A program made the translations under genes and the position numbers. Under the pieces are notes generated by a model that searched no databases, was not told where the DNA came from, and saw only the letters and a list, made by a program, of their open reading frames with translations. This document shows, in pieces, positions 3,805 through 40,931 of a DNA stretch of 64,000 nucleotides (position 1 is its first letter; each line of letters starts with the position of its first letter). The stretch is from Steroidobacter agaridevorans (GTDB lineage: Bacteria > Pseudomonadota > Gammaproteobacteria > Steroidobacterales > Steroidobacteraceae), in assembly GCF_009932555.1 (NCBI RefSeq), contig NZ_BLJO01000001.1, positions 374,472 to 438,471 of the forward strand, given 5' to 3'.

Positions 3805-3814
3805 TCCTTGCAAC

Positions 3815-6788: not shown

Positions 6789-6789
6789 T

Positions 6790-10717: not shown

Positions 10718-10724
10718 TGACTAC

Positions 10725-10741
10725 TGACTGACCGCCAGTCA
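10725..10741. promoter_or_regulatory. Predicted TetR-family operator
   Basis: TGACTG (10725-10730), spacer ACCGC, CAGTCA (10736-10741) is a perfect 17-bp hyphenated palindrome between the divergent TonB receptor and the 10752 gene. TGACTGAC-type half sites are common among TetR/AcrR operators, and a TetR gene is the second gene of the rightward unit, so autoregulation plus receptor control is the simplest reading. Confidence 0.6.
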
Positions 10742-10751
10742 TTATTTACCC

Positions 10752-11797: not shown

Positions 11798-11808
11798 GGC
11801 CGTTACCT

Positions 11809-13943: not shown

Positions 13944-13946
13944 GCG

Positions 13947-14810: not shown

Positions 14811-15022
14811 GTTCGATCCCTCCCACGGACGATCTGGGTGAACGCGGCGCGAGCCGGGAAAGTTCACCGACAACAGCGTCATTGATTGCCTATCGTGGCG
14901 CCCAGGTCGCGCATCGCAGGCTCAGTACTTGGCGCACGCCACGGCAAAACCAGGAACCAGTCCGGGACACGGGCCGTCGTTATGCCGGGCCTCGCCAGCT
15001 TCGGCGTCGTCAGGGAGTCTGT

Positions 15023-15478
15023 ATGCCCGCCCTCACCGTCAATGGCAAATCCCATTCCCTCGATGTTCCGCCCGACATGCCCCTGTTATGGGCGCTGCGC
15101 GATGTCATCGGACTGACGGGGACGAAGTTCGGCTGCGGAATCGCGGCTTGCGGCGCCTGTACGGTGCACGTCGACGGCCAGCCCACTCGTTCCTGCGTCA
15201 CCCCGGTCTCGGCCGTCGCCGGCAAGAAGATCGTCACCATCGAGGCGCTCGACCAGGATCCGGTCGGTCGCAAAGTGCAGGCAGCATGGCGTGAGATCGA
15301 CGTCGTCCAATGCGGTTATTGCCAGTCCGGGCAAATCATGTCGGCCGCTGCCCTGCTCGCCACCCAGCCGCGACCGTCGGATGCCGATATCGATGCGGCG
15401 ATGGCCGGGAATATTTGCCGATGCGGCACGTATGGACGCATTCGCACCGCCATCAAACGTGCGGCGGAGTCGACATGA
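15023..15478 (+). CDS. (2Fe-2S)-binding small subunit of a molybdenum hydroxylase (IorA-like)
   Basis: 151 residues from ATG 15023, preceded by GGGAG. The N-terminal plant-type ferredoxin domain has [17 protein letters not shown] and the later Cys of RSCVTP. The C-terminal helical domain has [10 protein letters not shown] and [13 protein letters not shown], which bind the second 2Fe-2S cluster. This matches the small subunit of isoquinoline 1-oxidoreductase and membrane-linked aldehyde dehydrogenases. It passes electrons from the molybdopterin subunit to an acceptor. The gene overlaps the large-subunit start by four bases (ATGA at 15475-15478), the normal sign of coupled translation for this complex. 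Confidence 0.93.
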
Positions 15479-19796: not shown

Positions 19797-19803
19797 GCTC
19801 TCG

Positions 19804-20961: not shown

Positions 20962-20967
20962 TGACCA

Positions 20968-22254: not shown

Positions 22255-23129
22255 CGCTGCACCGGCTCCTCGGGCTGCGCGGCCAGCAGCAACGCCGCCG
22301 TGAGTGCGAGCACGATCCCAGCGATCTTGTATGAGCTCGGTATCGCGCCCGCCAACAACAGCGACAGCAGCGCCGTCAACAACGGCGCGCCGGCATTCAC
22401 CAGCGGAGAAACAATGATTGCCTTGCCGTAACGAAAGGCGAACACGAGCGTGAGCGCACCCACGGCGTTCAAGAACTGAATCGCAGCGGCCAGGCCCGGG
22501 CCATCCAGCGAGTAATTGATGGGCTGAGAGAAATCCGTCATTGCCAGGGCCACGGGGCACAACAGCAAGCCACTCAGCATCATGTAGAAGAAGATGCTCG
22601 CCGCATCCATGCTCGCGTTCGCCAGCTTGATGACATATGCCTGCACACCCCACGCGGCGAGCACAGCTAGCGCCATCGCGAACCAACTGCCGTAACCGGC
22701 GGGTTCGCCATCGGCGCGATAGTCGAACAACGGCAGCGACAACAATGCGAGCACGATACCCACCAATCCAAGCAGGCCCGTGCGCTCGCGCAGAAGTGCA
22801 AACGAGAGCGCGATCGTGAGCGCCGGCGACAACGAAATGATTGGAAAAATGAGATACGGCGGACCGATCCGGACCGCATGAAACAACAGCAGCTGCCCAC
22901 CCGCGCCGAGCAGGCCGATGGCCAATCCCAAGGTCACGGAGCGGCGGTCACGTTGCAACGGCTGGCCGCTGCGGCTCAAAACCAGCAGCGCCGGTGGAAT
23001 CATCGTCAGCGACCACACGACGTAGTTCAGCGTCTCCGGCAGACCATTGGCGCTCGGCAGCCCGGCGAAGGCGCCCCACACTCCCCACAGGAGCAGCGTG
23101 GTCAACGCATAGAGCAGCCAAGGCTTCAT
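22251..23129 (-). CDS. EamA/DMT-family permease, probable sugar importer of the GalNAc operon
   Basis: 292 residues with ten predicted membrane helices in two repeats of the DMT type. It begins MKPWLLYALTTLLLWGVWGAFAGL and ends in a helix LAGAIPSSYKIAGIVLALTAALLLA followed by a short basic tail. Four-base overlaps join it to the GH27 gene upstream and the kbaZ gene downstream, so it is translationally coupled within the operon. Its place in the slot normally held by a GalNAc transporter (AgaP or a PTS) suggests inner-membrane uptake of the freed sugar. Import rather than export is an inference from context. Confidence 0.85.
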   Translation of the reverse strand: MKPWLLYALTTLLLWGVWGAFAGLPSANGLPETLNYVVWSLTMIPPALLVLSRSGQPLQRDRRSVTLGLAIGLLGAGGQLLLFHAVRIGPPYLIFPIISLSPALTIALSFALLRERTGLLGLVGIVLALLSLPLFDYRADGEPAGYGSWFAMALAVLAAWGVQAYVIKLANASMDAASIFFYMMLSGLLLCPVALAMTDFSQPINYSLDGPGLAAAIQFLNAVGALTLVFAFRYGKAIIVSPLVNAGAPLLTALLSLLLAGAIPSSYKIAGIVLALTAALLLAAQPEEPVQR

Positions 23130-24451
23130 CGAGCTAACTCTTGCTCGGCAGCGTCGCTCACGGAGCGGCCGTTCGCGCTGGTCGCCAGCTGACGAATGCG
23201 GAACACGCGCGCCTCATGACTCTGCACTTCGGTGGTGAAAGGAATGTCGTAAGTGCCGAGATCGCGATGTTTCCACAGATCACGGATGCTGTAGCGATCC
23301 ATGGGTGCTTGCAGATCCGCGCGCGGGCTGAAGGTCATCGTCGCCGTCGCGGCGCCCCGATTGAGCAGCAGCACGGCGTGACTGCCATCGGCAAGCTCCT
23401 TGGCGAACACTTCAAGGTCGCCGTCGTCGCGCACCTTGTGGGCAATGTTACCGGCGGGATCCTGGTTGAGAGCGACGATCTCCTTATTCGTCAGCGTCTC
23501 CAGCGAGTACTGATCGAGCTTGCGCACATCCGCGCCCACGAGCATGGGTGAGGACACCATGGCCCACAGGCTGAAGTGAGTCCGGTATTCGATGTTGGAG
23601 GCGCCGGTGCCGACCAACTGCTTGCTCTGGCCGTCGAGGCCGACGATGAGCATGTCGTAATCGTTCCAGTGGCCCGGGCCGGCGTACTTCTCCAGGCCGA
23701 CGCCGCGGTCCAGTTGATCGAGCACGTCGAAGTAATATTGCTCGCGATTGCCCGGATAGTTGAAGTCATCGGAGATGTCCTGGCCGATACGCCAGTGATT
23801 GACGCCGAGCCCCGCCGCCCATTCCCAGATGTCGCCCCAGCCGCAGTGACAGGCGTGCAGCACGATGCCGTGCTTCTGCGTCATCAGCGCGTTCGACATG
23901 GTCCGAAAGATCTTTTGCAGTTCTTCCTTGGGCGCTTCGCGGTGCGAGCAGCAGCTGTCGTACTTGAGATGATCGACGCCCCAATTGGCGAACATTCTGG
24001 CGTCTTCGGCTTCGTGCCCTTCGCTGCCCGTGTAGCCGGCGCAGGTCGTCTGCCCGGGACCGGAGTAGATGCCGAGCTTCATGCCGCGCTGATGCGCGTA
24101 GTCGGCGAGATAGCTGATGCCCCGTGGGAATTTCTTCGGATCGAACTCGAGCGGGTGATCCCGCCGTGCGCCCTTGTAGCGCTGCCAGCCGTCGTCCAGG
24201 TTGACGAACACGTAGCCGGCGTCACGCATCCCGTTGGCGATCATGGCATCGATGGTTTCGATGACGATCTGCTCGTTGATGTCGTCGCCGAAGTTGTTCC
24301 AGCTGCTCCAACCCACGGGCGGCGTTTGCGCCAGGCCGTTGCTGCGAGGTGCGGGCTGTGCCGCCGGCGCGGCGCTGGCAAACGCCACCGACAGGAGCGC
24401 GAACATCCAGATCAGGCCCGCGCATTTTTGCTTTTTATTGACCACAAACAT
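23126..24451 (-). CDS. Glycoside hydrolase family 27 protein, probable alpha-N-acetylgalactosaminidase
   Basis: 441 residues. The signal peptide (GLIWMFALLSVAFASA) sends it to the periplasm or beyond. The (beta/alpha)8 domain starts with PPVGWSSWNNFGDDINEQ. The nucleophile is the Asp of HLKYDSCC and the acid/base is the Asp of WRIGQDISDD. The C-terminal beta domain ends near ARVFRIRQ. GH27 covers alpha-galactosidases and alpha-N-acetylgalactosaminidases. In the loop before WEWA the Glu that contacts the galactose 2-OH in alpha-galactosidases appears replaced (ACHCGWG), which favours a 2-acetamido substrate. The gene follows the TonB receptor by six bases. Confidence 0.88.
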   Translation of the reverse strand: MFVVNKKQKCAGLIWMFALLSVAFASAAPAAQPAPRSNGLAQTPPVGWSSWNNFGDDINEQIVIETIDAMIANGMRDAGYVFVNLDDGWQRYKGARRDHPLEFDPKKFPRGISYLADYAHQRGMKLGIYSGPGQTTCAGYTGSEGHEAEDARMFANWGVDHLKYDSCCSHREAPKEELQKIFRTMSNALMTQKHGIVLHACHCGWGDIWEWAAGLGVNHWRIGQDISDDFNYPGNREQYYFDVLDQLDRGVGLEKYAGPGHWNDYDMLIVGLDGQSKQLVGTGASNIEYRTHFSLWAMVSSPMLVGADVRKLDQYSLETLTNKEIVALNQDPAGNIAHKVRDDGDLEVFAKELADGSHAVLLLNRGAATATMTFSPRADLQAPMDRYSIRDLWKHRDLGTYDIPFTTEVQSHEARVFRIRQLATSANGRSVSDAAEQELAR

Positions 24452-24457
24452 TCCTCG

Positions 24458-27247
24458 TCAGAACTTCGCGCTGGCGCCCACCAAGTACGAACGTCCCCAG
24501 GTCTCGAAGCCGGCCAGCATGTCGTTGCGACCGAGATACGCGACGTAGTACTCGTCGAGCAGGTTGCGACCTTCCAGCGACACGCTCAGCCCTTCGGTGA
24601 TCTTGTAAGCGACCGAAGCGGTCACCCACGTAATGGGCTCGACCTGTTGCGACCGGTCGGCGACCGAGTCGCTCACTTCCGTGTACTCACCGCTGTAGTC
24701 GGCCGCGAGCTGCACGTCCCAGCGATCGTTCTCGAACATCAGCGCAACCGAATACGCCGACTCGGAAACATTCTCGAGCGGACCGACGTGCACGCCGCCG
24801 ACATAGGCTTTCGTATCGGTGTACGTGTAGTTGGCGCGCACGCCGAAGCCGTTGTCGAAGAAGTGCTGGAGCCCGAGCTCCGCGCCGAGCACCTTGGCTT
24901 TGTCGCCATTGATGGGGCGACTCACGTCGTACAGCACGGGCGACTCGCCCGCACCGCCGATGTTGCCGACGACGCCGATGTCGACGTTCTCCTGCAACTC
25001 GGTCGTGATGAAGTTCGTAATCTTCTTCCAGAACACCGCCGCGCTCAGCACCGACTTATCCGCGAAGTACCATTCAGCCGACAGGTCGGCTTGATCCGCT
25101 TCGACCGGCTGCAGATCCGCATTACCGTCGTAGACTACGAGGTAGCTGCGATCCAGCGTGTTGTCGATACGCGTGGGCGCCAGCTGATTGAGCGACGGCC
25201 GCGCCATCACCTTGGCCGTTGCAAAACGCAGCAGTACATCGTCGCGCAGCCAATAACCGACGTTGAGCGCCGGCAGGAACTTGTCGTAGCTGCCCTTCTG
25301 GGTCAGCGGCTCGGCCGGGCTGTATGTGACATCCGGATGGGAGGTGGGAATCCCGGGCGTCGGATCGTCGACGAACTCGATGCTGTCGACCGCCGTTCTG
25401 GCCGTCGTGTCGGTCGAGATCCAACGCACGCCCGCGCTCGCGAACCACGCATCGCCGCGGAAGTTCGCATTCAAATACAGCGCCGTGGTCTCTTCGTCCA
25501 CATCGTAGGATTGCACCGGATTGAACTCCGGCGCCGTCAAGGACGAGTCGAAGACATCGCCGGTGGGTTCGCCATGCTCATCGAGGATGGGTTGGCCATC
25601 GAGCGCGCGCAATGCATTCAGATATTCGCTCGCCCGGATCGACACGAAACGCCGCGGATAGCTGCCGCCGGCGTTGCGCATGAAGTTTGGCAGCGACACC
25701 GGCCGGACGACATTCGCCCCGAGACTCTCGAAGGTCGTGTCGTACATGTCGCAGTACTGGCACGAGCCGCCGTTGGTGTCGTTCTCGAGGGTGTTGCGCA
25801 CCTTGTTACGGTCGGTGCTCGAGACGCCGAACTGCACGGTTTCGAGCGCACCGAACTCGAGCTTCAGCTCGCCGCCGATGGACAGGCCAGTGACCTCATC
25901 CGTCACATCCGTACCGGACAAGCCGATGAAATGCAGGCCATAGTCGGCATCCCCGAGCGCCCCGCTCTGCAACGCCGCCGCGAGGTCGCGGCCATCTTCC
26001 AGCGTCACAGCGATATTCGGCACGCCGCCACTGCGCATGTCGACCCGGCCGGTGTGATGGCCGCCGATGCCCGACACCATCCAAGTGTCCTTGCCGCCCG
26101 AGTCGCGCTCGGCCTTGGACCGATAAGCATCGAACGTGAACTTGAGTCGGTCGCTCGCCTGCCAGGCCGCATTCCAGCCGAACTGCGTGGTATCGACAAC
26201 CCGATGCTCGGTGATCGTGGACACCTCCGGCACGAGCTGGTCGATATCCATGCCCGTGACCCAGTGGTCGCGAATGCTCACATTGCTCCAGCGATGCAAA
26301 CCCGCGTCTTCATCGAGGATGGAGTCCTCGACATAGTACGACTGGTGATAACCGACGGTCGGCGCATCCAGGCGCGTAAACATGCCGTCCACCGTCATCT
26401 GGAAGGCGTCATTGACCTGCCATTGCCACACGCCGGTGAGACCGGTGCGCTTCCTTTCCTGGATGCGGGTGCCAAAGCTGGTACAGCACAGTCCGAGCAG
26501 CTCGCTCTCGGCGTCGGAGATCTCGCCATCGCCATTGGCGTCGAACTCGCCCGGCGAATCGGGCGTGATGAAGAACTCATGCACGGCGTCCGAGCGGACT
26601 TCGGTGTCTTGATACACCGCGGTGAATAGCACGCCCATGCGATCCTCGGCGAACGTATCGCTGATCACGCCGCTGACTTTGTAACCCGAGTTCTCGGATA
26701 GATCGTTGTAATCGCCCTCGACCGACAAGGAGGTACGCAGCCCGGGCCGATCGAGCGGCCGCGCCGAGGTGAGATTGATCGCGCCACCGATGCTGCCTTC
26801 GAGATTGACGGCGTTGGCGGACTTGAACACGTCCGCGCCCGCGATGATTTCGGAGGGCAACACGTCGAACGCGAATTCGCGGCCGTCGCCGTCGGTCGCG
26901 AGGATGCGATTGTTCAATGTAACGATGCTGAACTCGGGCCCCAGGCCGCGCACGTTGACGTACTGGCCTTCACCGCCCCGGGTACGCTGCAAGGTGATGC
27001 CAGTGATGTGAGACAGCGAGTCGGCGACGTTGTCGTCCGGGAATCGCCCGAGGTCTTCGGCAACGATCGAGTCCTGCACGATCGCCGCCTCGCGCTTCTT
27101 GTCGAGGCTTTCGGCGAGCGCGGCACGCGTGCCGGATACCACGATTTCTTCCAACGGATCCGACGAGGACGTTTCCTCGCCCAGCGCTGCCGCGCCGAGC
27201 GTGACGCCCATCAAGGCGAGTGAGACGGCTTTATATATGTGTGACAT
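24458..27247 (-). CDS. TonB-dependent receptor of the GalNAc-type operon
   Basis: 929 residues from ATG 27247. A signal peptide (AVSLALMGVTLGAAALG) and a TonB-box region (DPLEEIVVSGTRAALAESLD) precede a plug of the carbohydrate-receptor type with FPDDNVADSLSHITGITL and QYVNVRGLGPEFSIVTLN. The barrel is long and ends SYLVGASAKF with the terminal Phe. The AESLDKKREAAIVQDSI linker is shared with sugar receptors of Caulobacter and Xanthomonas. It should import GalNAc-containing oligosaccharides across the outer membrane to the GH27 enzyme. Weak GGTGA precedes the start. It is the first gene of the operon and faces the AgaR-type regulator. Confidence 0.92.
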   Translation of the reverse strand: MSHIYKAVSLALMGVTLGAAALGEETSSSDPLEEIVVSGTRAALAESLDKKREAAIVQDSIVAEDLGRFPDDNVADSLSHITGITLQRTRGGEGQYVNVRGLGPEFSIVTLNNRILATDGDGREFAFDVLPSEIIAGADVFKSANAVNLEGSIGGAINLTSARPLDRPGLRTSLSVEGDYNDLSENSGYKVSGVISDTFAEDRMGVLFTAVYQDTEVRSDAVHEFFITPDSPGEFDANGDGEISDAESELLGLCCTSFGTRIQERKRTGLTGVWQWQVNDAFQMTVDGMFTRLDAPTVGYHQSYYVEDSILDEDAGLHRWSNVSIRDHWVTGMDIDQLVPEVSTITEHRVVDTTQFGWNAAWQASDRLKFTFDAYRSKAERDSGGKDTWMVSGIGGHHTGRVDMRSGGVPNIAVTLEDGRDLAAALQSGALGDADYGLHFIGLSGTDVTDEVTGLSIGGELKLEFGALETVQFGVSSTDRNKVRNTLENDTNGGSCQYCDMYDTTFESLGANVVRPVSLPNFMRNAGGSYPRRFVSIRASEYLNALRALDGQPILDEHGEPTGDVFDSSLTAPEFNPVQSYDVDEETTALYLNANFRGDAWFASAGVRWISTDTTARTAVDSIEFVDDPTPGIPTSHPDVTYSPAEPLTQKGSYDKFLPALNVGYWLRDDVLLRFATAKVMARPSLNQLAPTRIDNTLDRSYLVVYDGNADLQPVEADQADLSAEWYFADKSVLSAAVFWKKITNFITTELQENVDIGVVGNIGGAGESPVLYDVSRPINGDKAKVLGAELGLQHFFDNGFGVRANYTYTDTKAYVGGVHVGPLENVSESAYSVALMFENDRWDVQLAADYSGEYTEVSDSVADRSQQVEPITWVTASVAYKITEGLSVSLEGRNLLDEYYVAYLGRNDMLAGFETWGRSYLVGASAKF

Positions 27248-27292
27248 GGGTTCACCGCATGTTCTTTGGCCAGGCGCAGCCATCCTATGCGA

Positions 27293-27389
27293 CGAAAATC
27301 GAAAGTACAAGAAACTTTCGTTTACTTTCGTTTTCAGCTTGACCGCAAGAATTAAGGAGCTATTCTTTCGGCTGTGACACAAACGAAAG
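27293..27389. promoter_or_regulatory. Cluster of AgaR-like operator repeats
   Basis: The divergent region contains CTTTCGTTTA and CTTTCGTTTT back to back (27315-27334), an inverted arm CGAAAATCGAAAG (27293-27305) and a further CTTTCG (27365-27370) and CGAAAG (27384-27389) pair around the regulator start. Tandem CTTTCGTTT-type repeats with 10-base spacing resemble the DeoR-family AgaR boxes described in E. coli (TTTC repeats with CGTTT). The cluster lies where it can control both the TonB receptor operon and the regulator itself. Confidence 0.7.
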
Positions 27390-28219
27390 CTACTCATCTG
27401 CCCAACGCAACCATGGCCAAGCTCAAGAAAAGCACCCGCGCCGGCCACGGGGTTCTGTCGATGGAAGAGCGCCGCCGCCGGATTCGCTCGCTCATCGAGA
27501 CGAACACTCAAGGCACGGTCGCCGAACTGGCGGAGAGCTTTGGCGTCTCAGCGGTCACCATCAGGACCGATTTGACGGCGCTCGAGCACATGGGCGTCGT
27601 GGTCCGCACGCATGGCGGCGCCCTGCCCCGCGGCGACAGCGATGAGCTGCCGATCAACGTCAAACAAACATTGCATCGGGCCGAGAAAGTACGCATCGCC
27701 ACGGCGGCGGCCGAAATGATCCGGGATGGCGAGACCGTCATCCTCGATTCCGGCACGACGACGGCCGAAATCGCGAAACAGATCCGAACGCTGAAGCTCG
27801 GCTCCATCAACGTGATCACGAATGCACTCAACATCGCGGTGCTGCTCGCGAACTCTTCGCACGTGAACGTGATCATTCCGGGCGGCGTGCTGCGTCAGAA
27901 ATCGTTTTCTTTATCCGGCCCGCAAGCCGAGCAAGCGCTGAGCACGCTGCATGCCGATGTGTTGTTTCTGGGCGTGGACAGCCTGGACCCGCAGATCGGG
28001 CTGATGACGCCGTACGTGCTGGAAGCTCAGTTGAATGCGCAGATGATCCGCATCTCACAGCGCGTCGTCGCGGTCACGGACTCATCCAAGCTGCTGCGGC
28101 GGAATCTTTCGGTGATCGCACCGGTGGATCAGATGGACGTCTTGATCACGGATAGCGGCGCGGACGCGGCCTGCATCGAAGCGATCCGCGCGCAAGGCGT
28201 CGATGTTCGATTGGTGTGA
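27374..28219 (+). CDS. agaR: DeoR-family transcriptional regulator, AgaR-like
   Basis: 281 residues from GTG 27374; an internal ATG (MAKLKKS, 27413) gives a slightly shorter alternative. The winged helix-turn-helix has ERRRRIRSLIETNTQGTVAELAESFGVSAVTIRTDLTAL followed by GVVVRTHGGAL, the DeoR signature. The C-terminal sugar-phosphate sensing domain has ILDSGTTTAEIA and the later VAVTDSSKLLRRNLSVIAP. Family members respond to sugar phosphates; AgaR in E. coli represses GalNAc/galactosamine genes. It is encoded divergently from the putative GalNAc operon and its operator-like repeats lie between. The effector is probably a phosphorylated galactosamine intermediate (inference). Confidence 0.88.
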   Translation: MTQTKATHLPNATMAKLKKSTRAGHGVLSMEERRRRIRSLIETNTQGTVAELAESFGVSAVTIRTDLTALEHMGVVVRTHGGALPRGDSDELPINVKQTLHRAEKVRIATAAAEMIRDGETVILDSGTTTAEIAKQIRTLKLGSINVITNALNIAVLLANSSHVNVIIPGGVLRQKSFSLSGPQAEQALSTLHADVLFLGVDSLDPQIGLMTPYVLEAQLNAQMIRISQRVVAVTDSSKLLRRNLSVIAPVDQMDVLITDSGADAACIEAIRAQGVDVRLV

Positions 28220-31549: not shown

Positions 31550-32317
31550 TTACGACGGCTGGTTGGCAGCGGCACCCGCGCGCGTGCGCGTCAGGTGACC
31601 GAGCAGACCCCAGTTCTGCAACGACTGCAGATGGAAATGCAGCAACGGCAGCCAGCCTCGCTTATGCAACTCGAGCACCTGCGCGTCTTCCAGAGTGCGC
31701 AGGCGATCCGGGTTCAGCAGCTTGAAGCCACGCAGCGTGAACGTCTGACCGCCGCCGAGATCGGCGCGCGCCATGCGGTCCTCGAGCATGTTGTTCTTAT
31801 CGAGCCACTCGCCGAAACGGCGCGTGTCCATGTAGTGCTGCTGGAAAGTCTCGTTGAACTGCAGAGCGCGCTGCAAAGCCTCCGACGGCTTGCCGTCGGT
31901 GAACAGCGGCTGAGCGGAGCTGGTCTCGAAATTGGCCGCGCCCTCGTCGATGCACAACACCAGGCGCTGCGACTCGGGAACTTCGGAAAAAATGAACGGA
32001 TAGCGGCGCACGTAAGCCGGAATGTAGCTGTCGTCGCGCCATGCGCCTTCGGCATTGACGAACAGATTTTCGTTGTCGCGCAGACCCACGACCGCGAACG
32101 GCACGATCGGCGCGTTCACCGAAAACACGATCGGATAGGTGCGCGCCGCGTGCGGCATCTCGGACGCAGTCAACGGGATGGCGTTGGTGCCGGCGGCAAA
32201 CCTGAATTCGACCTCCGGCTTCAGCCCGGCCTGCGCGTGGCGCGCGGGCTCCAACGGCACGGGATTCTTATAGAACATCGGCAAAGGCGCGGCAGGCGCG
32301 GCGGCGGCGTCAGTCAT
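31550..32317 (-). CDS. SapC family protein (copy 1)
   Basis: 255 residues. SapC-type markers are FYKNPVPLEPARHAQAGLKP near the N-terminus, SEMPHAARTYPIVFS, NENLFVNAEGAWRDDSYIPAYVRRYPF and the C-terminal TLRGFKLLNPDRLRTLEDAQV. The Pfam family SapC (PF07277) was named after an S-layer-export locus but in Xanthomonadales and Caulobacterales it mostly sits beside TonB receptors for sugars. No signal peptide is visible. It is divergent from the large TonB receptor across a 611-base region and is the leftward arm of that locus. The biochemical role is unknown. Confidence 0.87.
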   Translation of the reverse strand: MTDAAAAPAAPLPMFYKNPVPLEPARHAQAGLKPEVEFRFAAGTNAIPLTASEMPHAARTYPIVFSVNAPIVPFAVVGLRDNENLFVNAEGAWRDDSYIPAYVRRYPFIFSEVPESQRLVLCIDEGAANFETSSAQPLFTDGKPSEALQRALQFNETFQQHYMDTRRFGEWLDKNNMLEDRMARADLGGGQTFTLRGFKLLNPDRLRTLEDAQVLELHKRGWLPLLHFHLQSLQNWGLLGHLTRTRAGAAANQPS

Positions 32318-32581
32318 GAGCGTTCCGTATCCATAAAAGGCGGCGCATTCTGAACCCCCGGCCAGCGCGCGGCAACGCTAAATTGACGACGCCATCGTCG
32401 TCGTTCCCGCCACGGTCACGAACTGTGCCGCACGTCATGGACCGCAACAAAACCCGAGGCTTGCGTCGCTCGCACGGCGTATTGTCGGACCTGGATCGGG
32501 CCGCCATGACCACCGCTCGCCAACAATGTAGCAATAGGTGTTGCAAACCGGCGCGGACTGGCTCATCGTATGGGCCAATAA

Positions 32582-32595
32582 TGATAGCGGTATCA
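32582..32595. promoter_or_regulatory. LacI-type operator-like palindrome (site 1)
   Basis: TGATAGCGGTATCA has arms TGATA and TATCA around a CG-rich centre. It resembles LacI-family sites controlling sugar TonB receptors in Xanthomonas (for example the xyl box TGGTAGCGCTAACA). It matches the site at 32838 in 12 of 14 positions. Confidence 0.5.
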
Positions 32596-32837
32596 CCAGG
32601 GGATACACCGTGTCGTACAGGGTGGAACGACAAAACGAGCACCGCCGATTGACAGCGATGTCAGAGCTGCAAAGCGCCTCTGACCGCTCCGCCTCCCATG
32701 CCGAGGCCTGTACCCGTGACCCTCTTTCGATCTTGGCTGCCTCGCGCAGCCAACGTGTAACTGCCCGCCGCACCATACTTTTTCTTCAACGCAGCCAGTG
32801 AAGCAAAAGCCATGGGTGGACGGCACAGCAATGGCGA

Positions 32838-32851
32838 TGGTAGCGGTATCC
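32838..32851. promoter_or_regulatory. LacI-type operator-like palindrome (site 2)
   Basis: TGGTAGCGGTATCC lies about 78 bases upstream of the TonB receptor start, in a usual promoter position. The core TAGCGGTATC is identical to site 1, 256 bases upstream. Two copies that far apart could support looping by a tetrameric repressor. Confidence 0.5.
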
Positions 32852-32928
32852 GTGCCCTCGCCGACTCTTATTGGAGCCACTTTTAATCAGTGACTGGGTT
32901 CGACGTCCGTTAATCAGGGGGATTCGAG

Positions 32929-35900
32929 ATGATGAGAAATAACAGGCTCGCGATAGCCATCGCCGCGGCCTTGGCTTCGGTTGCGCCTCTGCATGGCGCA
33001 AACGCCCAGCAAGCCGCGGCAGGCGCTTCCACGCCCGGCCAGACCGAGCTGGAAGAAGTGGTCGTCACTGGCATGAGGGCCAGCTTGGAAACGTCGATGG
33101 ACATGAAGCGCGACGCGATCGGCGTCGTCGACGCCATCAGCGCCGAAGACATCGGCAAGTTTCCGGACAGCAACCTTTCCGAATCGCTGCAGCGTATTAC
33201 CGGCATCTCCATCGACCGTCGCAACGGCGAAGGCGCATTGGTGACGGCGCGCGGCTTCGGCGCTCAATACAACATGGTGACGTTGAATGGACGCACGATG
33301 CCCGCGGCAGACGCGTTTGCCGGCGGCAACTCGGGTGACGGCGGTGTCGCGGGCCAGTCGCGCGCTTTCAACTTCGCGAATCTCGCCAGCGAAAGCATCA
33401 GTGCGATCGAGGTCTACAAGACCGGCCGCGCCGACCAGGCCACCGGCGGCATCGGCGCCACGCTGAACGTGCGCACCGCTCGTCCGTTCGACAGCGACGA
33501 GCCGGTGATGAATGTCGGCGTCAAGGCAGTGACCGACACCACCAATCGCGTCGGCGACGACATCACTCCCGAAGTGTCCGGCATCTTCAGCTTCGCCAAT
33601 GACGACAAGACCTGGGGCGTCGGCCTGTCCGCGAGCTATCAGAAGCGCGACAGCGGCTCCTCCAGCTCCACCGTCAACGACTGGAACATCCGCAACTGGA
33701 CTCCGGGTGCCCAGACGACGAACTTCGCCCCGAACGCGGTCATCCTCAATGCGCCCGCCGAGGGCGCGCTGTATGCCATTCCGAACGACATCCGCTATCA
33801 CTTCTCCGATCGCGAGCGCGAGCGCACGAACGCACAGCTGACTGTGCAATTCGCGCCGACCGATACGCTGACGCTCACTGCCGACTACACGTATGCAGAA
33901 ACCGATCTGACCGAAGATCGCGGCGATCAGACGTTGTGGATGAACGCGAACCGCTACAGCCTGGTCGATTTCGACACGGGCCACGCGGTCGCAACCCCGT
34001 TGCTGCTGCAGGAAGACGAAGGCACCGCCAAGGACTTCGGCTTCGAGCAACAGCATCGCGAACAGCGCAACGAGCTGAAGTCGATCGGCTTCAACGCCGA
34101 ATGGCACGTCACAGACAACTTCTCGCTGGCCCTGGACGTGCACGACTCGACGGCGGAAAGCTTGCCGGACGATCCCATGACCGGTGGCGGCGAAACCCTG
34201 TTCAGCTTCGCCGCGCGCGTGCCGAGCACCTGCGATGCCGCCGTCACGAACCTCTGCACCAACCGTTTCGTGCAAACGTTCCGGTTCAACGATGGCCTGC
34301 CGATCGCGCAGCGGACGCTGTATCGCGACCCGACGACCACCGCACCGACGAACGGCGTCGGCGGCGATCCGAACTACGCGTTCACGAACGCCGACCTGGG
34401 CAGCCAATACCTGCGTATCAACTACCAGGAACAGGTCAGCGATATCACGCAGGCGCGCATCGACGGCAACCTGAAGTTCGAGAACGACAGCCGCGTGCAG
34501 TTCGGTGTCGAGACGCGCGCGATGGAGTCTCGTCAGCGGGCTTCCAACGCACAGATGACGTTGGGCGACTGGGGCGTGGCAAGGCCGGGCGAATTGCCAG
34601 CCAATCTGTTGCAGCCGTTCAGCCTCGTGGGCCAATTCGAGGACTTCTCAACCACGGGCGCGCCGCTCGCAGGCTGGAAAGGCAATGCGAACGCACTCGC
34701 GCAGTGGGCCGTGGACACCTATCGCAACTGGCGCGATCCCACCAACACCACCGGCGTGCTGGGCTACAACCCCGCCTTCGAACAGGATCACACCGTCTCG
34801 GAGGACACGGTCTCCGCGTACGTTCAGTACGGCATGAACTTCGATCTGTTCTCGCGCAATGCCAACCTGTTGTTGGGCGTGCGTTACGAAAAGACCGACC
34901 TGGAAGCCGTGAGCAACCAGATCGTGCCGCTCGGCCTGATCTGGCAAGACAACAACGACTTCTCCGAGCAGCAAGGCACGGGCATGTCGCAGGTCAAGCA
35001 AGAGAACGACTACGACTACGTGCTGCCGAATCTGGACTTCGACATCGAGGTCGTCGACAACGTCAAGGCGCGCTTCTCTTACAGCAAGACCATTGCCCGC
35101 GCGCAATACAACCAGCTGCGTGCAGCTGTGGACGTGGGCGGCTCGCAAGGTTCGTCGCTCAACGGGTTCAATCCGACGGCGAACGCGGCGAACCCGCTGC
35201 TCGAACCGCTCGAGTCCGACAACATCGACCTGTCCGTGGAATGGTACTTCGGCGACGCCAGCTACCTGTCCGCGGGCTTCTTCCACAAGAAGGTGGCGAA
35301 CTTCATCGGCAACGAAGTGGTCACGGAAGGGCTCTTCGGCATCACCGATCAAACCTCCGGTCCGCGTGCTCAGGCGGCAGTTGCCGCCCTGCAAGCTGGT
35401 GGCTACAGCACGGACGACACCAATCTGTTCGTGATGATGGCCATGATGTCGCGCCCCGAGGGGTTCACCGATGACAATGATGTGAGGTGGGAAGGCGGCG
35501 CCGGGGCCTTCAACGGCTCCGAAGCGCAGCACCTGGCGTGGGCCACCGAGGTCGACCTGCTCTCTGACCCTGCCTCGGATCCGGAATATCAGTTCGACAT
35601 CACGCGTCCGGTCAACAACAAGGATGCGAAGATCCACGGCTGGGAGCTGGGCGGCCAGCACTTCTTCGGCCAGACCGGCTTCGGCATCCAGGCGAACTAC
35701 ACCATCGTCAAAGGCGACGTGAGCTTCAACGATGCCGGCGCTCAGGACCTCAACCAGTTCGCCCTGCTCGGCTTGAGCGACTCGGCGAACCTGATCCTGA
35801 TGTACGAGAACTACGGCTTCCAGGTGCGTCTCGCCTACAACTGGCGCGATGAATTCCTGCAAAACACCAACCGTGGCAACGACCACAATCCTGAGTATGT

Positions 35901-36084
35901 GGAGGAGTACTACCAGGTCGACTTGAGCGTCGGCTACGAGGTCAACGAGAACCTCACGCTGTCGCTGGAAGGCTTGAACCTCACCGAAGAGGACGTGCGC
36001 TGGCACGGCCGTTCCATCAACCAACCCTGGTACGTGGAAGATCAGGGAGCGCGTTACGCACTGGGCGCGCGCTATAAGTTCTAA
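32929..36084 (+). CDS. TonB-dependent receptor of a SapC/cupin/halogenase locus
   Basis: 1051 residues. A signal peptide (LAIAIAAALASVAPLHGANA) is followed by the TonB-box region TELEEVVVTGMRASLETSMD and a plug with FPDSNLSESLQRITGISIDR and GALVTARGFGAQYNMVTLN. The MRASLETSMDMKR linker is characteristic of large carbohydrate receptors of Caulobacter and Xanthomonas. The barrel is very long and ends with YALGARYKF. It presumably takes up a large glycan fragment across the outer membrane. Strong GGGGGA lies 6 bases before ATG. The substrate is unknown; LacI-like operators upstream suggest sugar control. Confidence 0.93.
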   Translation: MMRNNRLAIAIAAALASVAPLHGANAQQAAAGASTPGQTELEEVVVTGMRASLETSMDMKRDAIGVVDAISAEDIGKFPDSNLSESLQRITGISIDRRNGEGALVTARGFGAQYNMVTLNGRTMPAADAFAGGNSGDGGVAGQSRAFNFANLASESISAIEVYKTGRADQATGGIGATLNVRTARPFDSDEPVMNVGVKAVTDTTNRVGDDITPEVSGIFSFANDDKTWGVGLSASYQKRDSGSSSSTVNDWNIRNWTPGAQTTNFAPNAVILNAPAEGALYAIPNDIRYHFSDRERERTNAQLTVQFAPTDTLTLTADYTYAETDLTEDRGDQTLWMNANRYSLVDFDTGHAVATPLLLQEDEGTAKDFGFEQQHREQRNELKSIGFNAEWHVTDNFSLALDVHDSTAESLPDDPMTGGGETLFSFAARVPSTCDAAVTNLCTNRFVQTFRFNDGLPIAQRTLYRDPTTTAPTNGVGGDPNYAFTNADLGSQYLRINYQEQVSDITQARIDGNLKFENDSRVQFGVETRAMESRQRASNAQMTLGDWGVARPGELPANLLQPFSLVGQFEDFSTTGAPLAGWKGNANALAQWAVDTYRNWRDPTNTTGVLGYNPAFEQDHTVSEDTVSAYVQYGMNFDLFSRNANLLLGVRYEKTDLEAVSNQIVPLGLIWQDNNDFSEQQGTGMSQVKQENDYDYVLPNLDFDIEVVDNVKARFSYSKTIARAQYNQLRAAVDVGGSQGSSLNGFNPTANAANPLLEPLESDNIDLSVEWYFGDASYLSAGFFHKKVANFIGNEVVTEGLFGITDQTSGPRAQAAVAALQAGGYSTDDTNLFVMMAMMSRPEGFTDDNDVRWEGGAGAFNGSEAQHLAWATEVDLLSDPASDPEYQFDITRPVNNKDAKIHGWELGGQHFFGQTGFGIQANYTIVKGDVSFNDAGAQDLNQFALLGLSDSANLILMYENYGFQVRLAYNWRDEFLQNTNRGNDHNPEYVEEYYQVDLSVGYEVNENLTLSLEGLNLTEEDVRWHGRSINQPWYVEDQGARYALGARYKF

Positions 36085-36093
36085 GTCGATGAA

Positions 36094-36123
36094 GCGGCCG
36101 GGTACTCTTCAGTACCCGGCCGC
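36094..36123 (+). terminator. Strong hairpin between the TonB receptor and SapC genes
   Basis: GCGGCCGGGTACT (36094-36106), loop CTTC, AGTACCCGGCCGC (36111-36123) is a perfect 13-bp stem with a stable tetraloop, starting 10 bases after the receptor stop. No U-run follows, so full termination is unlikely. It may protect the 3' end of the receptor mRNA or partly end transcription, giving less SapC/cupin/halogenase than receptor. Confidence 0.65.
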
Positions 36124-36188
36124 CCTCGGTCGTGGCAGGATGCCTGAGCCCGAAGTTGACGCTGGGGGAAGTCTTGGCCAGGCATGTG

Positions 36189-36926
36189 ATGCTCAATAAC
36201 GTCGCCCACAAGGATTTGCGGGTGATCGCTCGGCACGGCGCCGAATTCGGCGACAATCTCGGGACGGTACTCACCTTCCCCACCGAATACGGGGATGTGC
36301 AGCGGGAGTACCCGATTTTCTTCCGTAAAGATCCCCAGACCGGCGAGTTCCAATCGATCGCGCTGCTGGGCTTTCAGCAGGACGAAAACCTGTTCCTCGA
36401 CAAGGATGGCTGGCATGCCGCCTACATTCCCGGCATCGTCGCCCGCGGACCGTTTCTGATCGGCTTCCAGAATCAGGACGTGGACGGCCAGTTGCGCAGG
36501 GAGCCGGTGATCCACGTCGATCTGGACAATCCCCGCATCAGCGCCACCGAAGGCGAGCCGGTGTTCCTGCCTCAAGGCGGCAACTCGCGATATCTCGAGC
36601 GCATCACCGCCATTCTGCACGGCATCCATCAAGGGCTCGCCGTCAGCAAGGCCATGTTCGACGCGTTCACGGCGCACGGGCTGATCGAACCGGTGAATGT
36701 CGAGATCAAATTCAATGCCGAAGAGCAGTTCAACCTGCGCGGGCTGTACACGATCAGCGAAGAGAAGCTGCGCGGCCTGAGCGGCGACGCGTTGTTCGCA
36801 TTGAACGGCGCCGGCTTCTTGCAGGGCGCATTCCTGGTGATCGCCTCGCTCAACAACATGAAGAAGCTCATCGATATGAAACATCGGCGCCGACAGCAGC
36901 AGGCGGGGGTGGCCGCGGCATCATGA
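36189..36926 (+). CDS. SapC family protein (copy 2)
   Basis: 245 residues from ATG 36189, chosen because family members begin MLNNVAHKDLRVI; an upstream ATG at 36132 would add 19 residues without family pattern. Recognisable segments are TFPTEYGDVQREYPIFFRK, LGFQQDENLFLDKDGWHAAYIPGI and VNVEIKFNAEEQFNLRGLYTISEEKL. It shares the block order of copy 1 at 31550-32317 but is clearly diverged. No signal peptide is visible. It overlaps the cupin gene by four bases (ATGA), so production of the two is coupled. The role within sugar loci is unknown. Confidence 0.85.
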   Translation: MLNNVAHKDLRVIARHGAEFGDNLGTVLTFPTEYGDVQREYPIFFRKDPQTGEFQSIALLGFQQDENLFLDKDGWHAAYIPGIVARGPFLIGFQNQDVDGQLRREPVIHVDLDNPRISATEGEPVFLPQGGNSRYLERITAILHGIHQGLAVSKAMFDAFTAHGLIEPVNVEIKFNAEEQFNLRGLYTISEEKLRGLSGDALFALNGAGFLQGAFLVIASLNNMKKLIDMKHRRRQQQAGVAAAS

Positions 36927-37945
36927 CCGGCGAACTTAAGCGCACCCGAGAGCTGCACGGCTACACGGCCGACACGCTTCCCTTGCAAGAATTGTTGACT
37001 GGCGACGAGCCGGTCGTGCTGAAAGGCCTCGTCGCGCAGTGGCCGCTGGTGCAAGCCGGCCTGCGCTCGCATCACGAGGCGATGAGTTATCTGCGCTCCT
37101 TCTATAACGGTAAAACCGTCGGCACCTCGCGCGGCGATCCGCAGATCAAGGGCCGGTTGTTTTACAACGACGACTACACACAACTGAATTTCCTCAGTCA
37201 GCGCGCGCCGCTCGACCACGTGCTGATGGACATCGAGAAACATCTCGAGGACGAGCGCCCGCCCACCAACTACATCGCGTCGACGACCATCGACGCTTGC
37301 CTGCCCGGCTTCCGGCGAGACAACGATGTGCCGTTCGCCGCGCAAGGCTACGAGCCGCTGGCGAGCATCTGGATCGGCAACCGCACGATCGCATCCTGTC
37401 ACTACGACGCGCCCAACAATCTCGCGTGCTGCGCAGTCGGGCGCCGGCGCTTCACGATGTTTCCTCCCGAGCAGATCTTCAATCTGTATCCCGGGCCGCT
37501 CGAGCCGACGCCCGGCGGCCAGGCCGTGAGTCTGGTGGATTTCTCGAATCCCGACTTCGAGCGTTTCCCGCGCTTCCGCGAAGCGTTGGCGGCCGGACAA
37601 TCCGTGGAAGTCGAGCCCGGCGATGCAGTGTTCATTCCGAGCCTGTGGTGGCATCACGTCGAAGCGCTGAGCCCGTTCAATACGCTGATCAACTATTGGT
37701 GGAGCACGGCGCCGAAGTTCATGCCGTCGCCGATGAACGCGCTCTATCACGCAATCTGGGCCTTGCGCGACCGGCCGGAGCGCGAGAAGCGCGCCTGGCA
37801 GAGCGTTTTCGATTACTACGTCTTCGGCCGCGCCGAGCAGGCTGGCGAGCACTTGCCCGAGCAGGCCCGTGGCGCGCTCGGGCCGATGGATGACAGCAGC
37901 GCGCGTCGCATCCGGGCGATGCTGCTCAACAATTTGAATCGCTGA
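36923..37945 (+). CDS. Cupin_8/JmjC-like Fe(II)-dependent oxygenase
   Basis: 340 residues with a double-stranded beta-helix core. The metal motif HxD is in SCHYDAPNN (about residue 157) and the distal His is in PGDAVFIPSLWWHHVEA. The Lys/Arg that binds 2-oxoglutarate is probably in the GRRRFTMFPPEQ segment. This is the cupin-like domain 8 group related to factor-inhibiting HIF. It should hydroxylate a protein or small-molecule side chain. It starts inside the SapC end (ATGA overlap) and is followed 11 bases later by the halogenase, so the three are one operon with the receptor. Confidence 0.87.
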   Translation: MTGELKRTRELHGYTADTLPLQELLTGDEPVVLKGLVAQWPLVQAGLRSHHEAMSYLRSFYNGKTVGTSRGDPQIKGRLFYNDDYTQLNFLSQRAPLDHVLMDIEKHLEDERPPTNYIASTTIDACLPGFRRDNDVPFAAQGYEPLASIWIGNRTIASCHYDAPNNLACCAVGRRRFTMFPPEQIFNLYPGPLEPTPGGQAVSLVDFSNPDFERFPRFREALAAGQSVEVEPGDAVFIPSLWWHHVEALSPFNTLINYWWSTAPKFMPSPMNALYHAIWALRDRPEREKRAWQSVFDYYVFGRAEQAGEHLPEQARGALGPMDDSSARRIRAMLLNNLNR

Positions 37946-37955
37946 TGGAGCGACC

Positions 37956-39437
37956 ATGACGCCAATCAAACGAGTGGTCATTGCCGGCGGCGGCACCGCC
38001 GGCTGGGTCACCGCCGCCGCCCTGTCGCACCAGCTCGGTCAAATCCTCGATATCACCCTGGTCGAGTCGGATGATATCGGCACCATCGGCGTCGGCGAAT
38101 CGACCGTGCCGCCGATCCGCGTCTTTCATCAGCTGCTCGGCATCGACGAGCAGGAGTTCATGCGCAGCGTCTCGGCGACGTTCAAGCTCGGCATCTGGTT
38201 CGAGAACTGGGGCCAGATCGGCGATCGCTACATCCATCCGTTCGGCCGGCACGGCAAGCCGACCTGGCTCGCCGAGTTTCATCACTTCTGGCTGCACGGT
38301 CTGCGCTCGGGCATGAACTCGGAGCTCGGCGAGTATTGCGTCGAGTGGCTCGCCGCCAAGCAAGGCCGCTTCGGCACCTCGCCGCAATCCGACATCAACT
38401 ACGCTTATCACATCGATGCCACCGCTTACGCGAGGTTTCTGCGGCGCTTCGCCGAGAACCGCGGCGTCAAGCGCGTCGAGGGCAAGATCAAATCGGTCCA
38501 GCAGCATCCCACGACCGGCTTCGTCGAGTCGCTCACGCTGGCCTCGGATCGCGTGGTTCCCGGCGATCTGTTCATCGACTGCACCGGCTTCCGCGCCCTG
38601 CTGATCGAACAAACATTGCACACCGGTTTCGAGGATTGGTCGCACTGGCTTCCGTGCGACAGCGCGGCCGCGGTGCAGACCGAGATCACCGGCCCGCCGA
38701 ATCCTTATACCTGCGCGTTCGCGCACGAAGCCGGCTGGCGCTGGATGATTCCGTTGCAGCATCGCATGGGCAACGGCTTCGTTTATTGCAGCCGCTATAT
38801 CTCGGACGACGACGCCAAACAAAAGCTGATGCAGGCCGTCAGCGGCGCCCCGGTGCGACCGCCGTTCGTGCTGAAGTTCCAGCCGGGCCGCCGCCGCAAG
38901 AGCTGGAACAAGAATGTGGTCGCGATCGGATTGTCCAGCGGCTTCGTCGAGCCGCTGGAGTCCACCAGCATTCACGTCATCATGACCGCCGCGACCCGGT
39001 TGATGCAGATGTTTCCTTTCGACGGCGTCAGCCAGCCGCTGGTCGATCAGTTCAACGAGGAGTCGCGTGTCGAGATCGAGAAGATCCGCGACTTCATCAT
39101 CCTGCACTATAAGACCACCGACCGCGACGACTCGGCGTTCTGGCGCTACTGCAGGAACATGGAGATCCCCGCAGCGCTCGCCCATCGCGTCGAGATGTTC
39201 AAGGAGGGCGCGCACGCCTATCAGGACGCCGGCGAGCTCTTTCGCGTGGACTCCTGGACCCAGGTGCTGCTTGGCCAGGGCATCGTGCCCAAGCACTATC
39301 ACCCGCTCCCGCGCGGCATGCAGGAGCAGGAATTGGCGCGGGTCTTGAGCAGCCTCCGGGCCGGCGTCGCCCAGACCGTCGCCAAGCTGCCGAAGCATCA
39401 GGACTTCATCAACAGCTACTGCCGGACGACGGCTTAA
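37956..39437 (+). CDS. Flavin-dependent tryptophan halogenase family protein
   Basis: 493 residues. The FAD-binding Rossmann start is VVIAGGGTAGWVTAAAL. VGESTVPPIRVFHQLLGIDEQEFM follows, and the segment ATFKLGIWFENW contains the Lys that aligns with the catalytic Lys79 of PrnA. The diagnostic WxWxIP motif is present as GWRWMIPLQHR, and the region SSGFVEPLESTSIHV is conserved. The family halogenates indoles and phenols using FADH2; many locus-associated members have unknown substrates. No partner flavin reductase is in the cluster. Cytosolic. Confidence 0.92.
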   Translation: MTPIKRVVIAGGGTAGWVTAAALSHQLGQILDITLVESDDIGTIGVGESTVPPIRVFHQLLGIDEQEFMRSVSATFKLGIWFENWGQIGDRYIHPFGRHGKPTWLAEFHHFWLHGLRSGMNSELGEYCVEWLAAKQGRFGTSPQSDINYAYHIDATAYARFLRRFAENRGVKRVEGKIKSVQQHPTTGFVESLTLASDRVVPGDLFIDCTGFRALLIEQTLHTGFEDWSHWLPCDSAAAVQTEITGPPNPYTCAFAHEAGWRWMIPLQHRMGNGFVYCSRYISDDDAKQKLMQAVSGAPVRPPFVLKFQPGRRRKSWNKNVVAIGLSSGFVEPLESTSIHVIMTAATRLMQMFPFDGVSQPLVDQFNEESRVEIEKIRDFIILHYKTTDRDDSAFWRYCRNMEIPAALAHRVEMFKEGAHAYQDAGELFRVDSWTQVLLGQGIVPKHYHPLPRGMQEQELARVLSSLRAGVAQTVAKLPKHQDFINSYCRTTA

Positions 39438-39495: not shown

Positions 39496-40152
39496 ATGCC
39501 TGCCAAGTCCAAGTCTGCCGCCAAGCGCCGTCCCGCTCCGCTCGCTGCCAAGCCGGCAGCCGCTCCCGCGAAGGTCGTCAAGATCGGCAAGCGCCTCGAG
39601 TCGGTCGCCCGGGAGATCAAGGACGCCGACGACTTCGTCGAGCACGTCGCCGGCCTGGCCAAGCGCTTTCGGCGCGAACACGCCCTGCGGATCGGCGATG
39701 CTCAGACGGAATTGCGGCAATCGCTGCGCACGTTCCACAAACACGCCAGCGCGCTCGCCGAGTGGCTGGAGCAGGCAAACAACGGCAAGGCAACGGCGAT
39801 CGAACGCAAAGCCTTCGATGCCTTTGGCACGAAGCTTTACGGTTCACCCGTGCTGGCCCGGCCGCCGAGCGCGCAGGCCCTCGACTGGCTGACCCGCGCA
39901 AGCGAAGCCGCCGACGCCACCGCGATCGAAATGAAGCAAGGCGGCGCCGACGACGCCCTGCGAATCGCGGCCGAAGGACTGCGCGCCACGTTCGAGCATC
40001 ACAAACTCAAACTCGCCGCCGGCACGGACAAGAAGCCCGGCGACGCCGTGCGGCTCTTATGCGCCATCGCTCGCGAGGCTGGCGAAACCATCGAGCCCGC
40101 GACCGCCAAGGCTGCGCTCAAAGACACCCATCGTCCGGCAGCGGCCGCGTAG
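39496..40152 (+). CDS. Hypothetical protein with basic Ala/Lys/Pro-rich N-terminus
   Basis: 218 residues. The first 30 are rich in Lys, Ala and Pro (KSKSAAKRRPAP, then AAKPAAAPAK), like the flexible tails of histone-H1-like bacterial proteins. The rest is predicted helical (RLESVAREIKDADDFVEHVAGLAKRFRREH and further helices) with no signal or membrane segment. I know no family. A possible -10 element AAAATAG lies in its leader about 38 bases before ATG. It follows the halogenase stop by 58 bases and may be a separate unit. Confidence 0.6.
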   Translation: MPAKSKSAAKRRPAPLAAKPAAAPAKVVKIGKRLESVAREIKDADDFVEHVAGLAKRFRREHALRIGDAQTELRQSLRTFHKHASALAEWLEQANNGKATAIERKAFDAFGTKLYGSPVLARPPSAQALDWLTRASEAADATAIEMKQGGADDALRIAAEGLRATFEHHKLKLAAGTDKKPGDAVRLLCAIAREAGETIEPATAKAALKDTHRPAAAA

Positions 40153-40154
40153 CA

Positions 40155-40931
40155 CTACGTGGCATCGTGAAAGATCACGCCCAGCGTGTGCCTGTGACCC
40201 GATCGCAGACGACTCACGCCATGCCGCATGTTCACTCGATAGATGCCACGCGTTCCCTGCACAGGTCGATGATGGACCGCGAACACCACCGCATCGCCCT
40301 GCTCTAGCGGCACGACCTCCGCCCGCGACTGCATGCGTGGCCGCTGCTCGGTGAGCACGAACTCGCCGCCGCTGAAATCCCGTCCCGGTTGCGACAACAG
40401 CACGGCGACCTGCAGTGGAAACACATGTTCTCCATACAAGTCCTGATGGAGACAGTTGTAATCGCCCGCTTCGTACTGAAGCAGTAACGGCGTGGGCCGA
40501 AGCTGCCCCGCCTCATGACATCGCGCGATGAATTCCTGGTGCTCGCTGGGATAGCGCACGTCGATGCGCAGCAACTCGTTCCAGCGATTCGCGATCGGCG
40601 CCAGGTGCGGATACAGCGCACGTCGCAGCGAGCCGACCAGCTCAGGCAGCGGGTACTTGAAATACTGATACTCGCCCCGGCCGAAGCCATGCCGGCTCAT
40701 GACCACCCGACTGCGAAACAGATCTTTCGACGCGTACAGATCGGCCAGCGCCGAGCACTGTTTCGGCTGCAGTAGACTGGGAATAATCGCATGCCCGTGC
40801 CCGCCCAACTCGTCAGACAGGCGCTGCCAATCGAGCGCATCGATCCCATCCGCCAAACCGCGAGTCGCGACCTCAGAGACTTTGTTTGCAGCCGTAGCGG
40901 CCATCGTCGAATCCTGCTGAATCAACTGCAT
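40155..40931 (-). CDS. 2OG-Fe(II) oxygenase superfamily protein
   Basis: 258 residues. The beta-helix iron site starts with the HxD of NCLHQDLYG and the distal His lies in VNMRHGVSRLRSG, after which the RHTLGVIFHDA segment has the Arg that should bind 2-oxoglutarate. It resembles prolyl-4-hydroxylase-like and related bacterial 2OG dioxygenases. The segment GGEFVLTEQRPRMQSRA is conserved in the group. It would hydroxylate a protein or small metabolite with succinate and CO2 as coproducts; the substrate is unknown. Convergent with the hypothetical gene (2-base gap), and about 190 bases from the divergent glycan cluster. Confidence 0.87.
   Translation of the reverse strand: MQLIQQDSTMAATAANKVSEVATRGLADGIDALDWQRLSDELGGHGHAIIPSLLQPKQCSALADLYASKDLFRSRVVMSRHGFGRGEYQYFKYPLPELVGSLRRALYPHLAPIANRWNELLRIDVRYPSEHQEFIARCHEAGQLRPTPLLLQYEAGDYNCLHQDLYGEHVFPLQVAVLLSQPGRDFSGGEFVLTEQRPRMQSRAEVVPLEQGDAVVFAVHHRPVQGTRGIYRVNMRHGVSRLRSGHRHTLGVIFHDAT

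Follow-up and report, generated by a model that had tools for sequence, protein, structure and literature searches.

A SapC, TonB-dependent receptor, cupin and halogenase locus of Steroidobacter agaridevorans as a probable arm of a XylR-controlled xylan/xylose regulon

The locus described here lies in a stretch of 64 kb (hereafter the window, meaning the whole stretch of DNA that was analyzed) on contig C1 of the 8.0-Mb genome of the soil bacterium Steroidobacter agaridevorans (G000), and comprises genes for a TonB-dependent receptor, two SapC-family proteins, a cupin oxygenase and a flavin-dependent halogenase, together with an intergenic stretch of 611 bases (32318-32928) that carries two operator-like 14-mers, termed xyl-boxes below. 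All five genes, in the order SapC, TonB receptor, SapC, cupin, halogenase reported by a first-pass annotation of the sequence, were confirmed by their open reading frames (ORFs) and Pfam matches. The features are as follows, in window coordinates:

31550-32317, minus strand: SapC-family protein 1, 255 amino acids (PF07277, E 7.9e-63, 212.4 bits, cut-off 28.9), divergent from the receptor operon
32541-32546, plus strand: TTGCAA, part of a putative promoter-like block upstream of box 1, in conserved GTTGCAAA
32582-32595, no strand assigned: xyl-box 1, TGATAGCGGTATCA, 347 bp before the receptor gene and 265 bp before SapC 1
32650-32663, no strand assigned: a third CG-centered palindrome, TGACAGCGATGTCA, missed by the first-pass annotation, with 14 of 14 columns invariant in five genomes
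32838-32851, no strand assigned: xyl-box 2, TGGTAGCGGTATCC, 91 bp before the receptor gene
32929-36084, plus strand: TonB-dependent receptor, 1051 amino acids, plug and barrel by Pfam (TIGR01782, TonB-Xanth-Caul subfamily, 731 bits)
36156-36926, plus strand: SapC-family protein 2, 256 amino acids (PF07277, E 4.3e-67, 226.3 bits, cut-off 28.9), alternative GTG start at 36132
36923-37945, plus strand: Cupin_8 2-oxoglutarate oxygenase, FIH- and JMJD5-like, 340 amino acids (Pfam E 4.8e-72)
37956-39437, plus strand: flavin-dependent halogenase of the BrvH type, 493 amino acids (Trp_halogenase, PF04820, E 3.8e-191)
39496-40152, plus strand: 218-residue protein following the halogenase, no Pfam match

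The receptor and SapC 2 genes are separated by 71 bases (47 with the GTG start), SapC 2 and the cupin overlap by 4 bases, and 10 bases lie between cupin and halogenase, an arrangement consistent with one operon from the receptor through the halogenase. The operon claimed in the first-pass annotation thus holds for the cupin and halogenase, closely spaced downstream of the receptor, but not for the first SapC, whose divergent gene stands outside it. Alignment of the two SapC proteins over 242 positions gave 60 identities (24.8%), and the SapC 1 gene adjoins the cassette also in the four nearest genomes. Since homologues of the 218-residue protein were found only in the four nearest (L070-L073) of the 79 halogenase loci compared below, its membership of the cassette is uncertain. 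Just downstream of the cassette, on the opposite strand, lies a gene for an Oxygenase-NA family (PF09859) protein (40155-40931).

Both 14-mers that had been noted in the intergenic region are present, as box 1 and box 2, and their shared 10-mer core TAGCGGTATC (at 32585 and 32841) has no other copy in the window; shuffled windows contained it 0.04 times on average, and none of 100 shuffles held two copies. When the intergenic region was aligned among five Steroidobacter genomes, 219 of 611 columns were invariant, including all 14 of box 1 and all 13 that were compared of box 2 (the first 13 of its 14), and none of 610 circular shifts equaled this invariance of the boxes. The two 14-mers are thus kept in five of five close genomes, and not absent from the equivalent regions of relatives, the outcome that the first-pass annotation had set against its own proposal. 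In addition, a genome from another genus of the family (G016) carries two boxes at -369 and -75 of the receptor gene. The block GTTGCAAA is likewise invariant in the five genomes, with TTGCAAAC at the equivalent place in G016; no promoter was found when the region was scanned with a promoter consensus, and box 1, downstream of the conserved TTGCAA block, may cover the start site. GTGTCGTACAGGGYGGAACGAC (32610-32632), located after box 1 and before the third palindrome, has TGTCGT/ACGACA arms and is conserved in the five Steroidobacter genomes.

A scan of the 8.0-Mb genome with the looser pattern TGRTAGCGSTATCM gave a few near-perfect copies over a noisy background, while the symmetric pattern TGNTANCGNTANCA gave 15 sites, 14 of them intergenic, compared with none of the 12 sites of the reversed control pattern, all of which lay inside genes (Fisher p 7.5e-7). 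Outside the window, where genes were called with a codon-usage ORF caller trained on 16 window ORFs and named by phmmer against own-genome references or, for selected proteins, by Pfam, 11 of the 13 intergenic sites lie ahead of genes related to plant walls or xylose. Two boxes flank a LacI-family gene (G000:C5:232551-233624), one lying between it and a GH67 gene and the other between it and an operon for a sugar transporter, an FAA-hydrolase-like protein, an SDR, an SMP-30-type lactonase and an IlvD/EDD dehydratase, which by its family content is an oxidative xylose route. Other sites were found at a GH10 gene with a GntP permease gene, at a receptor gene with GH43 and a GH35-like enzyme, at a GH43 gene opposite GH5, at a GH3 gene opposite a receptor and a glucuronoyl esterase (CE15), before a further GH43 gene (GH43 thus occurring at three places in total), before a gene for a GH9-like enzyme and, as two boxes, before a receptor-halogenase-SapC-esterase-esterase-cupin-GH3 run. 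Because boxes occur both at this LacI gene and at plant-wall and xylose genes, we name its product XylR. The regulator had been expected outside the window, which contains no LacI gene; in line with this, the nine LacI genes detected genome-wide all lie on contigs other than that of the window, and the genome scan that had been recommended for the 14-mer and for LacI genes beside its matches led to xylR, next to GH67. The locus therefore has boxes (two) upstream of its operon and shares them with xylR and the xylan/xylose genes, as in a xyl-box regulon. Counting S. agaridevorans itself, 12 of the 14 genomes of the genus encode XylR, with boxes flanking xylR in nine of the 12, and the receptor box and the xylR box are either both present (eight genomes) or both absent (three); this comparison omits G001 (xylR, no receptor match) and G003 and G009 (no match for either) and leaves out the fragment G006:C798 and G049, and in G013 the receptor has one site with one mismatch.

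The locus is very probably one arm of a multi-site xylan/xylose regulon under XylR that would be derepressed by xylose. XylR is released by xylose in Xanthomonas and Caulobacter, where the published xyl-box is TGGTAGCGCTAACA, according to the accessible part of PMC10380989, and repression by XylR is also described in that of PMC13282271. In Steroidobacter, XylR would occupy the two xyl-boxes between SapC 1 and the receptor operon in the absence of xylose and block transcription, until xylose or short xylo-oligosaccharides release it; derepression would then supply a TonB receptor importing xylan fragments together with SapC, the FIH-like 2-oxoglutarate oxygenase and the flavin halogenase. The sugar-dependent, LacI-type repression suggested in the first-pass annotation gains support from the sequence and may be narrowed to XylR and xylose. 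This proposed regulation is well supported by sequence; for the chemistry of the cassette, we infer a target of the enzymes that accompanies the glycan or appears as a consequence of it. SapC, oxygenase and halogenase would represent a portable oxidative module, which other bacteria may attach to other glycan receptors under other regulators.

The distribution of the cassette was followed in the best 80 of 544 matches of a halogenase scan, which gave 79 loci that are not independent (L081 and L082 look alike, L132 and L136 lie on one contig, and L070, L071, L072, L073, L075 and L090 were taken as the same records as G011, G002, G010, G008, G005 and G004). Upstream of the halogenase, a receptor was found in 71 loci, SapC in 56, a cupin in 54 and all three in 52, and a reference glycoside hydrolase, esterase or LacI gene occurred in the fetched flanks of at least 48 of the 79, a lower bound with 12 own-genome enzymes and LacI proteins as references. 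In the box survey of 70 loci (71 less L107, dropped for missing upstream sequence), ten had a strict xyl-box at most 400 bp from the receptor (0.0004 per shuffled region) and 19 had an alternative LacI box, TGTAAGCGCTTACA, upstream of the receptor, the remainder having related palindromes or lacking them. When box type was mapped on a 75-row receptor tree (five other own-genome receptors added, L082 and receptors of less than 700 residues omitted), it required 8 changes, versus 32.4 with shuffled labels. Xyl-boxes precede the receptor-SapC-cupin-halogenase set in Steroidobacter, Microbulbifer and Sphingomonas, and the other LacI box precedes it in genera including Shewanella and Colwellia; in two Microbulbifer loci (L077 and L083), box, GH67, box, receptor, SapC, cupin and halogenase stand in a row, followed by a XylR homologue. 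Since the cassettes of relatives sit behind xyl-boxes, behind TGTAAGCGCTTACA or behind neither, the cassette is a portable module joined to several glycan regulons.

A similar picture was found within the S. agaridevorans genome, which has 11 full-length Trp_halogenase genes (L035-L045), of which nine follow a TonB receptor gene, one is divergent from such a gene and one neighbors a LysR gene. Three of the 11 belong to gene runs that start with xyl-boxes, and the second boxed run (L055, G000:C7:148000-167999, at 2457-10914) contains receptor, halogenase, SapC, two esterases, cupin and then GH3. A paralogous run (L058, G000:C6:8000-27999, at 4330-16198) has the order receptor, halogenase, SapC, cupin, halogenase beside GH1, MFS and LacI genes, and TGTAAGCGCTTACA (at 8298), found in this genome beside that further LacI gene with GH1 and the paralogous cassette, places the module in another glycan regulon. 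DUF6445, matched in 36 of the 79 loci and right behind the halogenase in 31, is a frequent fifth member of the cassette (L077 11488-12183; L083 11494-12189; L090 6982-7683; L075 9536-10261); its HxD...H...R pattern presumably marks a further 2-oxoglutarate oxygenase, and in the window the gene for the 218-residue protein takes its place. Elsewhere in the window (17716-28219), genes for a DeoR regulator, a TonB receptor, an alpha-galactosidase (Melibiase_2), an EamA transporter and GatZ/KbaZ-like, SIS and BadF-type proteins form a locus of galactose/galactosamine type that resembles an aga-type utilization locus with its own receptor.

Several observations weigh against placing the window locus in a XylR regulon. 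The number of TGNTANCGNTANCA sites does not exceed that of the reversed control (15 versus 12), so that the signal of the box lies in its placement alone, and TGRTAGCGSTATCM with two mismatches matched 91 places compared with 162 for its reversed control. One TGNTANCGNTANCA site lies inside a gene, and the intergenic sites C7:165784 and C7:192445 have no clear xylan link. Each window box agrees with the published xyl-box at only 11 of 14 positions, one half of box 2 is weaker, and the Fisher p of 0.006 for the concordance of receptor and xylR boxes ignores kinship. Among the wider relatives the strict xyl-box is confined to the ten of 70 loci, four of which belong to the nearest genomes; moreover, in G022 a cassette adjoining an oxidative xylose operon (L231) has no box, while a cassette of the other LacI type (L236) carries one xyl-like box. 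Finally, no glycoside hydrolase, inner-membrane sugar transporter or regulator gene was found at the window locus, which does not show the receptor, degradative enzymes, inner-membrane transporter and regulator together that characterize a carbohydrate utilization (CUT) locus. It would instead be a remote arm of a multipartite carbohydrate system, and such multipartite utilization systems are allowed for in the accessible text of PMC1790865.

It is possible, if somewhat doubtful, that the locus reads two sugars, with XylR at the xyl-boxes and a second LacI protein (C10:9443, next to GH3) at TGACAGCGATGTCA, thereby combining xylan and cellulose/beta-glucoside signals, a reading that extends rather than replaces the XylR explanation. 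The palindrome is invariant in five of five genomes, TGACAACGTTGTCA stands upstream of the GH3-LacI pair (C10) and of an MFS gene (C8), TGACAGCGATGTCT is found ahead of a GH9-GH62-GH10 cluster, and the pattern with one mismatch occurs at 37 places compared with eight in the reversed control. However, TGACAGCGATGTCA is absent in G016, G004, G005 and G007, the four TGACACCGGTGTCA sites are uninformative (one inside a gene, one 148 bp before a receptor gene and two before unannotated genes), and the palindrome could also be a leader hairpin with a GCGA loop. As none of 30 predicted pairs showed a double change and Rfam gave no match, neither a second LacI-type site nor a hairpin is favored. That the xyl-boxes are bound mainly by another LacI-family protein, and that the locus answers to a sugar other than xylose, appears very improbable, even though four of the other eight LacI genes were tied to no operator type in a palindrome scan and the motif is generic for the family: in the same scan xylR was the only one of the nine flanked by the xyl-box type (two boxes when the looser pattern was used), the boxes of xylR and of the receptor are retained or missing in the same genomes, and two other LacI genes have clearly different boxes. 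In contrast to repression by XylR, the DNA looping suggested in the first-pass annotation was not supported. Residues 19-355 of the 358 of the XylR candidate align to LacI 3-332, and the protein ends three residues past the position of LacI 332, so that the alignment shows no counterpart of the C-terminal segment by which LacI tetramerizes. The distances between the boxes in six related genomes (245-256 and 294 bp) show no more than a loose helical phasing (R 0.73 for a turn of 10.5 bp), and several relatives have a single strict box; neither feature lends support to a loop.

The closest sequences of the halogenase in the Protein Data Bank (PDB) were 6y1w, which we take to be Xcc4156, 9luq and 6frl (BrvH). 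Its GxGxxG motif, catalytic Lys, WxWxIP motif and catalytic Glu are each conserved in 97% or more of 80 rows, and alignment to BrvH identifies K77 and E335 (numbering of the 493-residue protein) as the catalytic residues; the roles of these motifs and residues are given in the accessible part of PMC5945002. Likewise, the cupin matched the PDB sequences of FIH and JMJD5 and carries an HxD...H triad (H160, D162 and H244) kept in at least 97% of 55 rows, and both enzymes look active. The cupin has no evident signal peptide and is therefore predicted to be cytoplasmic, while the AlphaFold2 model of SapC 2 is confident (predicted local distance difference test score, pLDDT, 95.1), and no structural relative was found for it. 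It seems unlikely that the halogenase-like protein no longer halogenates and acts as some other flavin monooxygenase, a view to which weak, below-cut-off NCBIfam matches to QhpG (36.9 of 240 bits) and LodB (21.8 of 400 bits), presumably flavoproteins of protein maturation, would point. Neither BrvH nor Xcc4156 has a known native substrate, as far as the accessible parts of PMC5945002 and PMC7336383 go, which leaves room for such a function; however, the conserved motifs and catalytic residues argue against it, as does the bromination of indole by the related BrvH in vitro (PMC5945002, same part). Candidate targets of the module range from aromatic decorations of hemicellulose to a signal or defense compound or protein residues; that the module is joined to receptors of several regulons speaks against a xylan-specific substrate. 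A further, improbable reading is that SapC, the FIH-like cupin and the halogenase (with DUF6445 in many relatives) serve in protein maturation, modifying the glycan TonB receptor or a partner protein. Such a system would account for the presence of one set of enzymes behind receptors of different glycan regulons, for the resemblance of the cupin to protein hydroxylases and for the lack of a known small-molecule substrate of these halogenases; sugar-induced cells would then hydroxylate and halogenate protein residues, resulting in a surface that captures glycans better.

The proposed XylR control resembles the Xanthomonas XylR/xyl-box regulon with its xylan CUT loci and Caulobacter XylR, both in the LacI-type repressor with a CG-centered 14-mer box and in the scattered receptor, xylanase, xylosidase, glucuronidase and xylose genes under one repressor. 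It differs from the Xanthomonas regulon in that it includes receptor-SapC-cupin-halogenase cassettes and in boxes that deviate at three of 14 positions, although the 2013 study of that regulon, compared here by way of the accessible parts of PMC10380989 and PMC13282271, may itself list such cassette genes. The halogenase belongs to the same family as BrvH and Xcc4156, with the same catalytic residues, but in contrast to the accounts of these two enzymes, whose accessible parts name no receptor, SapC or regulator, an operon, a candidate regulator and a likely inducing condition can be given for it. Similarly, the window cupin shares its HxD...H triad and sequence similarity with Cupin_8 2-oxoglutarate oxygenases of the FIH and JMJD5 type, yet is bacterial, predicted to be cytoplasmic and tied to TonB receptor operons. 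Among the papers listed in the literature searched, with subscription papers mostly outside its scope, no description was found of the SapC-receptor-cupin-halogenase cassette or of its control by xylan or XylR. Regulation of this type has been described before; what is new, judged by the literature searched, is an orphan halogenase module repeatedly placed in a xylan regulon. Flavin halogenases of the BrvH/Xcc4156 type have been characterized structurally and in vitro but have no known natural substrate, and the link to the xyl-box offers a growth condition (xylan or xylose versus glucose) and partner enzymes for the substrate question. It thereby ties these puzzling halogenases to the digestion of plant fiber and suggests where their natural substrate may be sought.

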